DNA of 64,000 bases, from assembly GCA_913774715.1 (NCBI GenBank), contig CAJYHS010000204.1, positions 62,001 through 126,000 of the forward strand, in the 5' to 3' direction. Made by a program: the position numbers and the translations under genes. Source of the DNA: an uncultured Siphonobacter sp. (GTDB lineage Bacteria; Bacteroidota; Bacteroidia; Cytophagales; Spirosomataceae). The notes beneath the pieces were generated by a model. The model had not been told where the DNA came from and did not search any database. It saw nothing but the letters and a program-made list of their open reading frames with translations. Shown here in pieces: positions 34,953 through 36,559 of this stretch. How positions within the stretch are numbered: position 1 is the stretch's first letter; each line of letters opens with the position of its first letter.

Positions 34953-35498
34953 ATGAAAAAATTGCTTATCAGTCTTCTTCTTATCAATACCGCCTGCCAG
35001 AATGATACGCAACAGGCGAGCCATCAACCCCAGACTTATTTCGATTTAAAAGGTTTCATTGAAACGCAGATTACTACTTTGAAAAAGACAGATCCGATTG
35101 TCCGGAAAGAAGTAATCGTCAATGAAGAATCGGAAACGCTGGTTACTCCAAACATTGACTGGGCGAAAGAACTAGAGTTATTTATTCAGGCAGATTTAAA
35201 TAAACCAGCTTATACTCAGAGTTATTTTACAGATACGCTTTCAGCAAATACTGTTTCCTACCGGCTGCGTCAGGATGAACGTTTACCCGTCCAGTTTCTC
35301 GAAATAATCCGGGACGAACAGAATCGTCCTGCCAAGATTAAGGCTACCCTTTTAGAGAAGAATTACCTCTTCGAATCTGAAAAAATCCTGACCTTGGAAA
35401 GTAAAAATGGCCGCCTTAGCTCTTATCAAATAGAGGGCTTCCAACAACTATTTATTGGAGATCCTAAGCCATTCAAAATAAGTACTCTTGTACAATAA
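34953..35498 (+). CDS. Hypothetical lipoprotein
   Basis: 181 residues with a short hydrophobic signal ending at a likely lipidated cysteine (LLLINTAC, Cys15). The body is mixed alpha/beta (SYRLRQDERLPVQFLEIIRD, RPAKIKATLLEKNYLFESEK), with no cysteine or catalytic motif. No family is recognised. It lies between the epimerase and the Crp/Fnr regulator, each with its own spacer signals, so it is probably a single-gene transcript. Confidence 0.65.
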   Translation: MKKLLISLLLINTACQNDTQQASHQPQTYFDLKGFIETQITTLKKTDPIVRKEVIVNEESETLVTPNIDWAKELELFIQADLNKPAYTQSYFTDTLSANTVSYRLRQDERLPVQFLEIIRDEQNRPAKIKATLLEKNYLFESEKILTLESKNGRLSSYQIEGFQQLFIGDPKPFKISTLVQ

Positions 35499-35563: not shown

Positions 35564-36157
35564 ATGTTATCCAATCCCGAAAAATCCAGTCCATTAGCAG
35601 AGGCTTTAACTCAATTATATCCTATTTCGGATATAACAAAAGAAGCAATACTTCAGGCTCTTAAACCCTGTATTTATTCCAAAGGTTTGTTAGTATTAAC
35701 TCCTGGTCAGCGGAGTGAATATCTTTATTTCATTGAAAAGGGATTAATGCGGGGTTATTACATGGAAGAAGGGAAAGAAATAACTACCTGGATTGTAGCC
35801 GAAGGAGGCGTAGGAATGGCGACGGAAAGTTTTTATCGACAAACGCCTTCCGATTTATACATTGAAGTTTTAGAAGATAGTACGGTCTATCGCCTCCATT
35901 ACCAGGATTTTTTAGGTCTTCGTTTAAAATACCCGGATTACGCTCAGTTTATACTTCGATTTACGGAGGAATACCTCATCTTTAATAACATTCGGCTTCG
36001 ATTACTGTGCACTCGCTCCCCCTTAGAACGCTACAAATTGTTTGATTCTAAACATGCCAATCTTCGGGGAAGGCTTTCTCAGAGTGTGCTAGCTAGTTAT
36101 CTGAATATGAGTTATTATCAAATTAGTCGGATCAGAACGCAACTTTCTAAAATATAG
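35564..36157 (+). CDS. Crp/Fnr-family transcriptional regulator
   Basis: 197 residues. An N-terminal cyclic-nucleotide-binding-like beta-barrel (~30-130; SKGLLVLTPGQRSEYLYFIEKGLMRGYYMEEGKEITTW) is followed by a dimerisation helix (AQFILRFTEEYLIFNNIRLRLLCTRSPLERYK) and a C-terminal winged-helix (LSQSVLASYLNMSYYQISRIRTQLSKI). There is no FNR-type four-cysteine cluster, so it is not an oxygen sensor of that kind; its effector is unknown. Two Fnr-type palindromes start 22 bases after its stop, so it may control the element there. Confidence 0.85.
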   Translation: MLSNPEKSSPLAEALTQLYPISDITKEAILQALKPCIYSKGLLVLTPGQRSEYLYFIEKGLMRGYYMEEGKEITTWIVAEGGVGMATESFYRQTPSDLYIEVLEDSTVYRLHYQDFLGLRLKYPDYAQFILRFTEEYLIFNNIRLRLLCTRSPLERYKLFDSKHANLRGRLSQSVLASYLNMSYYQISRIRTQLSKI

Positions 36158-36178
36158 AATTCCGTGTAACAACATTTG

Positions 36179-36214
36179 TTGCGAAAACGCAACTCCTTTT
36201 TTGCGTTTTCGCAA
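36179..36214. promoter_or_regulatory. Two tandem Fnr-type palindromes
   Basis: TTGCGAAAACGCAA (36179-36192) and TTGCGTTTTCGCAA (36201-36214), each 5-4-5 as in Fnr sites (TTGAT-N4-ATCAA). Centres are 22 bp apart, two helical turns. Together they also form a perfect 14-bp inverted repeat with an 8-base loop, so a hairpin role is possible; no T-run follows. Confidence 0.65.
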
Positions 36215-36237
36215 ACTCCCTATAATTCTTATGTCAC

Positions 36238-36245
36238 TACTTTTG
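36238..36245 (+). promoter_or_regulatory. Candidate activator-dependent promoter (-7 box)
   Basis: TACTTTTG fits TAnnTTTG, followed by TAACATT as at the Crp/Fnr promoter. No TTTG box lies upstream, as expected for an activated promoter. The predicted start near 36250 places the two palindromes at about -42 and -64. Confidence 0.45.
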
Positions 36246-36249
36246 TAAC

Positions 36250-36408
36250 ATTCAAGGAAGCTTGATGTGCTGCTTACTGAAAAGACTTCTGCGTTCAACC
36301 CTCCACCTTTCCTATAATTTCTTATAGGGCGGCTTTATTCACCAACCCACTTATTAGTAATTTTTCTATTCAGGCTACAGTCCCAGACGGTAGCCTGAAT
36401 GCTTTTTA
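36250..36408 (+). ncRNA. Candidate small RNA (or micropeptide mRNA) under Crp/Fnr control
   Basis: A ~159-base stretch without a large frame lies between a promoter-like box (36238-36245) and a hairpin terminator (arms 36368-36378 and 36390-36400, perfect 11 bp, then GCTTTTTA). An internal hairpin CCTATAA-TTTC-TTATAGG is at 36311-36328, and a pyrimidine-rich loop CCCTCCACCTTTCC precedes it. A 20-codon frame (36265-36327) could encode a basic peptide. The call rests on the arrangement only; no expression evidence exists. Confidence 0.4.
36368..36408 (+). terminator. Free-standing rho-independent terminator
   Basis: Perfect 11-bp stem (ATTCAGGCTAC/GTAGCCTGAAT), 11-base loop, then GCTTTTTA. It lies 210 bases past the Crp/Fnr stop and 150 bases before the next gene, so it most simply ends a short transcript that starts in between. 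Confidence 0.75.
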
Positions 36409-36559
36409 TCTTCTATTTTTTTCGTGGAATCTTCGATTTTCAATTTAAATCCTATCTTTCCTTTCCTTGAAAGTCAATATTTTATAACAAGTTTGTGACA
36501 CAAGCGTTTTAGTTTAGGTTGCGACACCTACTCGTATTGCCTCGCCCACTTCATTGTCT

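Follow-up and report, generated by a model that had tools for sequence, protein, structure and literature searches.

The window, a stretch of 64,000 nucleotides from an uncultured Siphonobacter sp., contains a gene for a Crp/Fnr-type regulator whose stop codon is read at positions 36155-36157. Another 21 nt separate the gene end from the first of two palindromes, TTGCG-AAAA-CGCAA and TTGCG-TTTT-CGCAA, which lie 8 nt apart and have their centres 22 bp from each other (Table 1). A spacer of 23 nt leads from the second palindrome to the -7 box TACTTTTG, on the 3′ side of which follow an ORF-poor, partly conserved stretch and then an intrinsic terminator, whose 11-bp stem (arms 36368-36378 and 36390-36400) runs out into GCTTTTTAT. 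Downstream of the terminator are found a gene for a TonB-dependent receptor and then a DUF4249 gene. A preliminary description of this DNA had named both palindromes, with their positions and 22-bp centre spacing, and these prove exact to the base; the box and the 11-bp terminator are likewise present as it described them. The internal hairpin that it also mentioned does exist in the window, but its region shows little conservation, two Siphonobacter sub-clades being 36% identical at 36310-36338.

Table 1. Features of the regulator locus, in positions of the window, and the basis on which each was assigned.
Feature	Position	Strand	Basis
Crp/Fnr-type regulator, 197 aa	35564..36157	+	PF00027, E 1.1e-9; match to 3dn7
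Palindrome-like element TGTAACAACA, upstream of the pair	36165..36174	.	Alignment with congeners
Predicted distal operator, TTGCG-AAAA-CGCAA (TTGCGAAAACGCAA), centre about -64.5	36179..36192	.	Sequence, genome comparison
Predicted proximal operator, TTGCG-TTTT-CGCAA (TTGCGTTTTCGCAA), centre about -42.5	36201..36214	.	Sequence, box distance, order sample
-7 box TACTTTTG (TAnnTTTG type)	36238..36245	+	30-31 nt from palindrome in 6/6 genomes
Predicted RNA, about 159 nt	36250..36408	+	Inferred: start from box geometry, end from terminator
Most conserved RNA block, contains TGTGCTGCTT	36265..36309	+	64% identical between sub-clades; 27 columns invariant
Second conserved RNA stretch, CCAACCCAC	36342..36350	+	Alignment of Siphonobacter loci
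Intrinsic terminator, 11-bp stem and T run	36368..36408	+	Sequence, genome comparison, folding

At the place of TGTAACAACA, the alignable congeners G002-G005 carry TGTACGTACA (three genomes) or TGTACATACA (one genome). In the Siphonobacter loci with ORFs listed, a short lipoprotein-like gene (34953-35498 in the window), for which no Pfam or NCBIfam family match was obtained, stands directly upstream of the regulator gene. Ahead of the TonB receptor gene, a stretch with TATAACAAGTTTG (36471-36540) shows 49% identity versus 29% just upstream, and is probably the receptor gene's own promoter.

In a profile search, the N-terminal part of the regulator was recognised as a cNMP-binding-like beta roll (PF00027, 38.5 bits against a cut-off of 27.5), while HTH_Crp_2 (PF13545) reached only 14.1 bits, below its 27-bit cut-off; the latter profile was matched in five of six family members, all below cut-off. 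The nearest solved chain is 3dn7 (residues 9-193, E 6e-15), and Crp folds were also the best matches of a structure model that, being of low confidence (pLDDT 60.6), was used for the fold only. The recognition helix ends in ...SYYQISRIR, with Y at the position equivalent to E209. FNR proper holds its cluster with four cysteines. An identity as Fe-S FNR was rejected, as only two cysteines occur in the 197 residues, and the operator and residue expected of FNR proper are not met either, given the TTGCG half-sites and Y instead of E209. The protein has 23 matches within its own genome at E <= 0.001; to our knowledge, most of the many Crp/Fnr-type paralogues in genomes of this group have no known signal, site or target.

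The palindrome pair is found without mismatch once in each of the six Siphonobacter genomes and in none of the 216 other genomes of the family (222 scanned). With one or two mismatches it was detected in five further family genomes, the backwards control giving matches in three; in one of those five, G011, the degenerate pair immediately follows a Crp/Fnr-type gene of that genome. Counted from the second palindrome, TTTTG ends after 30 nt in four Siphonobacter genomes and after 31 nt in two, including the window, and not one of the 23 spacer columns is invariant among the five alignable genomes. The spacing of pair and box, which the preliminary description had proposed to compare in relatives, is kept in all six. 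Single TTGCG-N4-CGCAA sites are not enriched (five in the genome, two of which form the pair, versus 11 in the backwards-read control). A regulon elsewhere in the genome, sought through such sites, was rejected on the basis of two of the three further sites: neither L001 nor L002 has a TTTG on either strand at a distance of up to 60 nt (the third site, on contig C265, did not enter this check).

Crp/Fnr-type genes of other genera are followed by this layout as well. A first set of 76 loci, reduced to 64 genes after removal of ten without a recognised gene and two duplicates, contained ten genes with a pair exactly 22 bp apart and a TTTG box, six of them from Siphonobacter; no gene was obtained in 60 shuffling rounds, and none or one at other spacings between 15 and 39. 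Genus, family and order searches then gave an order sample of 163 loci, or 149 genes once nine in which the helix was not located and five duplicates had been dropped. In 84 of these 149, a palindrome at the 3′ end is followed by a TTTG that ends 30 or 31 nt later (30 nt in 66 genes and 31 nt in 21, some showing both), versus zero to six genes at the other distances from 12 to 49; at 30 and 31 nt, the reverse complement gave five and two genes and gene bodies two and four. The 30/31-nt test found no such site in the remaining 65, and four of the 84 (L126, L163, L171 and L185) are probably chance matches. Since it was the first loci that drew attention to the 30-nt distance, the later sets of 79 and 27 genes are the fairer test. 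Of the 79, which were fetched with this distance already known, 40 have the 30/31-nt site, with at most four at any other distance; among 27 genes from other orders of the same class, the distance is 30 nt in 13 and 31 nt in three (15 genes altogether), with no more than two elsewhere. The helix was mis-placed for L185 in the order sample and for L265 and L271 in the class sample. A gene-blind scan of 391 genomes for two TTG-N8-CAA motifs and TTTG returned 21 matches versus one for the control; 11 of the 21, two of them in Siphonobacter, begin close to the end of a Crp/Fnr-type gene, from 4 nt ahead of it to 18 nt past it, and with at most two palindrome mismatches this holds for 11 of 15. Within a literature search of partial coverage, no title or beginning of an abstract pointed to Bacteroidota operators that occupy a fixed position downstream of Crp/Fnr genes.

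According to the portion available of a study on F. psychrophilum, the TAnnTTTG box lies at -12 to -5 (PMC9723704), so that with 30 nt in between the palindrome is centred at -41.5, which is the class II position, and the second site, 22 bp upstream, at -63.5. The window, with its 31 nt, would have centres at -42.5 and -64.5 if transcription starts at the predicted position 36250, in agreement with the earlier estimate of about -42 and -64. Given the box at -12 to -5, centres of -41.5/-42.5 meet the class II expectation of a site near -41.5. In 11 of the 84 genes the proximal palindrome starts ahead of the gene end, for instance at an offset of -4 (e.g., L065, L068, L069, L117, L141 and L167), and the operator then extends over the last bases of the regulator gene; where this happens, the TGA stop codon can form part of a TTGAY half-site.

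For comparing regulators with their sites, we used the residue at what we take to be the FNR-E209/CRP-E181 position of the recognition helix. Of the 46 genes with E at this position (order and class samples), 43 show TTGA in both halves; those with Y, F or H (Siphonobacter, genus g17 and G011) have TTGC in both halves in 11 of 11, and TTAAC occurs in at least one half for all nine genes with Q and for 12 of the 13 with V. When the residue labels are placed on a tree of the 149 proteins, E requires 17 changes, V 9 and aromatic 5, and the starred branches force 10, 4 and 2 of them, respectively; because of these repeated changes, the match between residue and half-site cannot be put down to a single inherited accident for E and V. 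In the case of the aromatic class, a single origin is not excluded by the sequences: the best tree separates Siphonobacter from genus g17, yet a test on 46 of the 149 rows does not reject a tree that joins them (p-AU 0.105), and two separate origins of the RNA arrangement are not claimed for this reason. As far as the source could be consulted, Rodionov et al. (2005; PMC1274295) described a correlation between position 181 and this half-site base, as well as a Q181 regulator that reads TTAAC; the present predicted sites agree with that correlation and extend it. The same study, which in its available part covers nitrogen-oxide regulons and describes Fnr-like regulator genes co-localised with a target, resembles our case in that the residue at the E181 position of HcpR and related regulators tracks the fourth base of the half-site. 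It differs in that the rule proposed here is a fixed operator position behind the gene, and TTGCG with Y, F or H was not found in what was accessible of that article. It is mainly because the half-site follows the recognition-helix residue of the neighbour that the product of 35564-36157 is inferred to bind the pair. The reading of the palindromes as an activator's operator, put forward in the preliminary description, is thereby strongly supported by the spacing in congeners, by the placement in the order sample and by the match of half-site and helix.

What this promoter would drive differs between regulators. In 68 of the 84 operator-bearing genes, an ATG frame of at least 80 aa begins no more than 60 nt from the predicted start, and there is no frame of at least 80 aa within 150 nt for 10 of the 11 Y/F/H regulators versus 3 of the 73 others; behind Y/F/H regulators of two genera, an RNA-like unit takes the place of the protein frame. 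Between the Siphonobacter sub-clades, the block at 36265-36309 approaches the conservation of the coding 3′ end of the regulator gene (70% identity), compared with 25% for the spacer and 29% after the terminator. The terminal stem is present in each Siphonobacter genome folded, with a changed sequence (22% identity); G002 and G004, however, have at the terminator place a G+C-rich hairpin without a clear T run. S. aquaeclarae (G001) has a short RNA body that does not resemble that of the other Siphonobacter. The predicted 159-nt RNA folds better than most of its shuffled versions (z -2.47, 4 of 200 as good), to which the terminator contributes, and, in a consensus fold computed from five genomes, the covariation term is unfavourable (+2.84), with two-sided changes in 9 of 23 pairs and many pairs broken. 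Own promoter, terminator and absence of a conserved frame, as required of a regulatory small RNA, are met by the sequence, apart from the unclear T run of G002 and G004.

A parallel exists in genus g17: in six of its nine genomes, a Crp/Fnr-type gene is followed by palindrome and box and then by a conserved candidate RNA of about 110 nt with a terminator; the strict operator test is passed by four of these six loci, L075 having ATTG for TTTG and L106 a variant palindrome. In two g17 loci with ORFs listed, the next long ORF lies on the opposite strand. A strict terminator search placed a terminator before the next frame in at least four of the 84 genes, all from g17, and missed the window's own, the loop of which is too long. 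Searches for a known family or a target were negative. Rfam gave no gathering-level match in the window or in ten related loci (five hits had E 0.31-3.4, far below the gathering scores), nor was a match obtained for the g17 candidate in the two loci tested (L073 and L107). Pairing of the RNA with the 5′ ends of four neighbouring genes was no better than with 100 shuffles, and the complement of the 10-mer TGTGCTGCTT occurs 9, 10 and 13 times in three genomes, its own locus counted, versus 13, 13 and 15 in the backwards control. A site shared by two close relatives 29 nt upstream of a 149-aa gene was considered as a candidate target and rejected, as it gave no convincing duplex. The small-RNA output suggested beforehand is favoured by the conserved block, the lack of a nearby protein frame and the parallel in g17, all of this being sequence evidence, but a transcript has not been shown. 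As a separate observation, the g17 loci (L073, L075 and L106-L109) combine a helix with RFT, TTGCT sites, this second candidate RNA of about 110 nt and a conserved terminator.

The alternative that retains most weight holds that the RNA is the leader of a TonB-receptor/DUF4249 operon, which the regulator would activate, the terminator being a conditional attenuator. The receptor gene does follow on the same strand in the window and, judged by its start sequence, in four alignable congeners, and in S. aquaeclarae a second Crp/Fnr-type gene and then the receptor are downstream; moreover, the usual arrangement of a protein frame directly behind the promoter (the 68 of 84 genes above) and the missing clear T run of G002 and G004 would suit a leader. 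Against this, the receptor has its own conserved stretch past the terminator (36471-36540, with identity well above that just before it), and in the two g17 loci with ORFs listed, the similar terminated unit is followed by a long ORF of opposite orientation. We regard this explanation as unlikely, weaker than the regulatory RNA and nevertheless alive.

It could further be argued that the pair merely forms a hairpin, an alternative raised by the preliminary description itself, or terminates the regulator's mRNA, the -7 box being there by chance, since the two sites together make one perfect 14-bp hairpin in five of the six Siphonobacter genomes and the first palindrome with TCCTTTTTT scores terminator-like. 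The sixth genome, that of S. aquaeclarae, separates the two ideas: its sites, TTGCG-CAAA-CGCAA and TTGCG-TTCG-CGCAA, are each a perfect 5-4-5 palindrome, with the 8-nt gap and the box distance kept, while the long hairpin has gained a mismatch and the T run is gone. A hairpin needs neither a fixed box distance nor a match to the neighbour's helix and fails to explain them. The pair thus looks like an operator and not only a hairpin, although an extra role of the hairpin is not excluded, and the hairpin taken alone seems to us very improbable. We attach just as little credence to the idea that the regulator at the pair mainly blocks transcription at the end of its own gene, as negative feedback with the RNA as a by-product: the proximal palindrome starts at or before +20 of the gene end in 59 of the 84 genes, as a roadblock would have it, but such a roadblock requires neither the fixed distance to the -7 box nor a conserved RNA block. 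That the output is a small peptide is the least credible proposal. The 20-codon ATG frame at 36265-36327 does stay open in G002 and G004, with GTG in place of the ATG, and a 16-codon GTG frame is open in G000, G002 and G004. As a reading frame, however, the 20-codon frame is not conserved among Siphonobacter: it stops after six codons in G005 and after five in G003, neither of which has an ATG frame of at least eight codons at this place, an insertion of 4 nt puts the GTG frame out of register in G005, in G003 that frame overruns its stop, and no similar frame is listed for G001.

Our preferred explanation is that the Crp/Fnr-type protein encoded by 35564-36157 would bind both palindromes behind its own gene as two dimers, placed on the same face of the DNA by the 22 bp, or two turns, between them. 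The proximal dimer near -42 would act as class II activator of a promoter that has a -7 box and lacks a -33 box, and the distal dimer near -64 may add class I-type help. Activation would yield the terminated RNA of about 159 nt without a conserved reading frame, which could serve as the regulatory RNA arm of the regulator; no target has been identified. For this explanation as a whole, a regulator that activates a class II promoter behind its own gene and so gives rise to a regulatory RNA, we estimate a probability of roughly 0.65. Its parts are not equally firm. Operator and class II promoter are highly probable; the production of the RNA as a separate unit, inferred in the absence of transcript data, is likely; and its action as a regulatory RNA, equally an inference, could be decided either way. 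At the level of sequence alone, the operator pair, the promoter geometry, the match of half-site and helix, the terminator of the window and a partial conservation of the RNA can be considered established, whereas activation rather than repression is inferred from position, and the signal sensed by the regulator, the existence of the RNA and its regulatory role likewise remain inferences. Since the RNA lies on the same strand and behind the regulator gene, it may also be the 3′ end of the regulator's mRNA, i.e., a 3′-UTR-type sRNA with its own promoter that is controlled by the protein of the same mRNA. With somewhat more reserve than the explanation of the locus itself, we favour the wider view that about half of the Crp/Fnr regulators of the class label their own binding code through a 3′-end operator at the class II position, and that lineages with an aromatic helix residue (Siphonobacter and one further genus) drive a stand-alone regulatory RNA with no neighbouring protein gene.

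Class II promoters activated by Crp/Fnr proteins are well known, for instance those with FNR sites TTGAT-N4-ATCAA near -41.5. The present locus shares with them the 5-4-5 palindrome, the proximal centre at -41.5/-42.5 and an upstream promoter element that is weak or missing; it departs from class II FNR sites in the TTGCG half-site, in the Bacteroidota -7 box that replaces the -10 element, in the position of the operator behind the regulator's own gene and in the second site exactly 22 bp upstream. Small RNAs encoded beside their regulator are also familiar (SgrS/SgrR, GcvB/GcvA and OxyS/OxyR), and FnrS is an Fnr-activated RNA. The predicted module resembles the former three in having regulator and small RNA side by side, and FnrS in having a Crp/Fnr protein as activator of an sRNA; unlike all four, it is co-directional and behind the regulator's own gene, belongs to another phylum and has no Rfam match. 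The nearest reported case that we found in the phylum is SnoA of Bacteroides thetaiotaomicron, beside hcpR, which, according to the available part of its description, lies opposite to and inside the hcp promoter at a level independent of HcpR (PMC13370916). SnoA too is a non-coding RNA locus directly downstream of a Crp/Fnr-type gene, whereas the RNA predicted here is co-directional with the regulator and starts behind the neighbour's predicted operator. An identity with SnoA, as far as that description can be followed, was rejected: the RNA is not antisense to a target promoter, and its neighbours are the TonB receptor and DUF4249 genes, not hcp. The parts of the predicted arrangement are thus known, and the arrangement itself was not found in the literature searched, the coverage of which was partial. 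If the operator is fixed behind the gene, the binding code and a first target of many such regulators could be read from sequence, and the residue-to-base recognition code would become testable; the Siphonobacter locus, if the explanation is true, would be a regulator-plus-RNA module in which the switch of the RNA sits at the end of the regulator's own gene.

We also would like to point out two further arrangements at Crp/Fnr-type genes. In S. aquaeclarae (L044 and L010), two such genes follow one another in tandem, separated by the operator pair and two terminator-like hairpins, and the second gene runs almost directly into the TonB receptor gene. In genus g47 (L074, L124 and L127), the palindrome region behind other Crp/Fnr-type genes is followed by a near-identical hairpin, AAAAAGCCCCGC...GACCGAGCGG, after which comes a lipoprotein-like ORF on the same strand.
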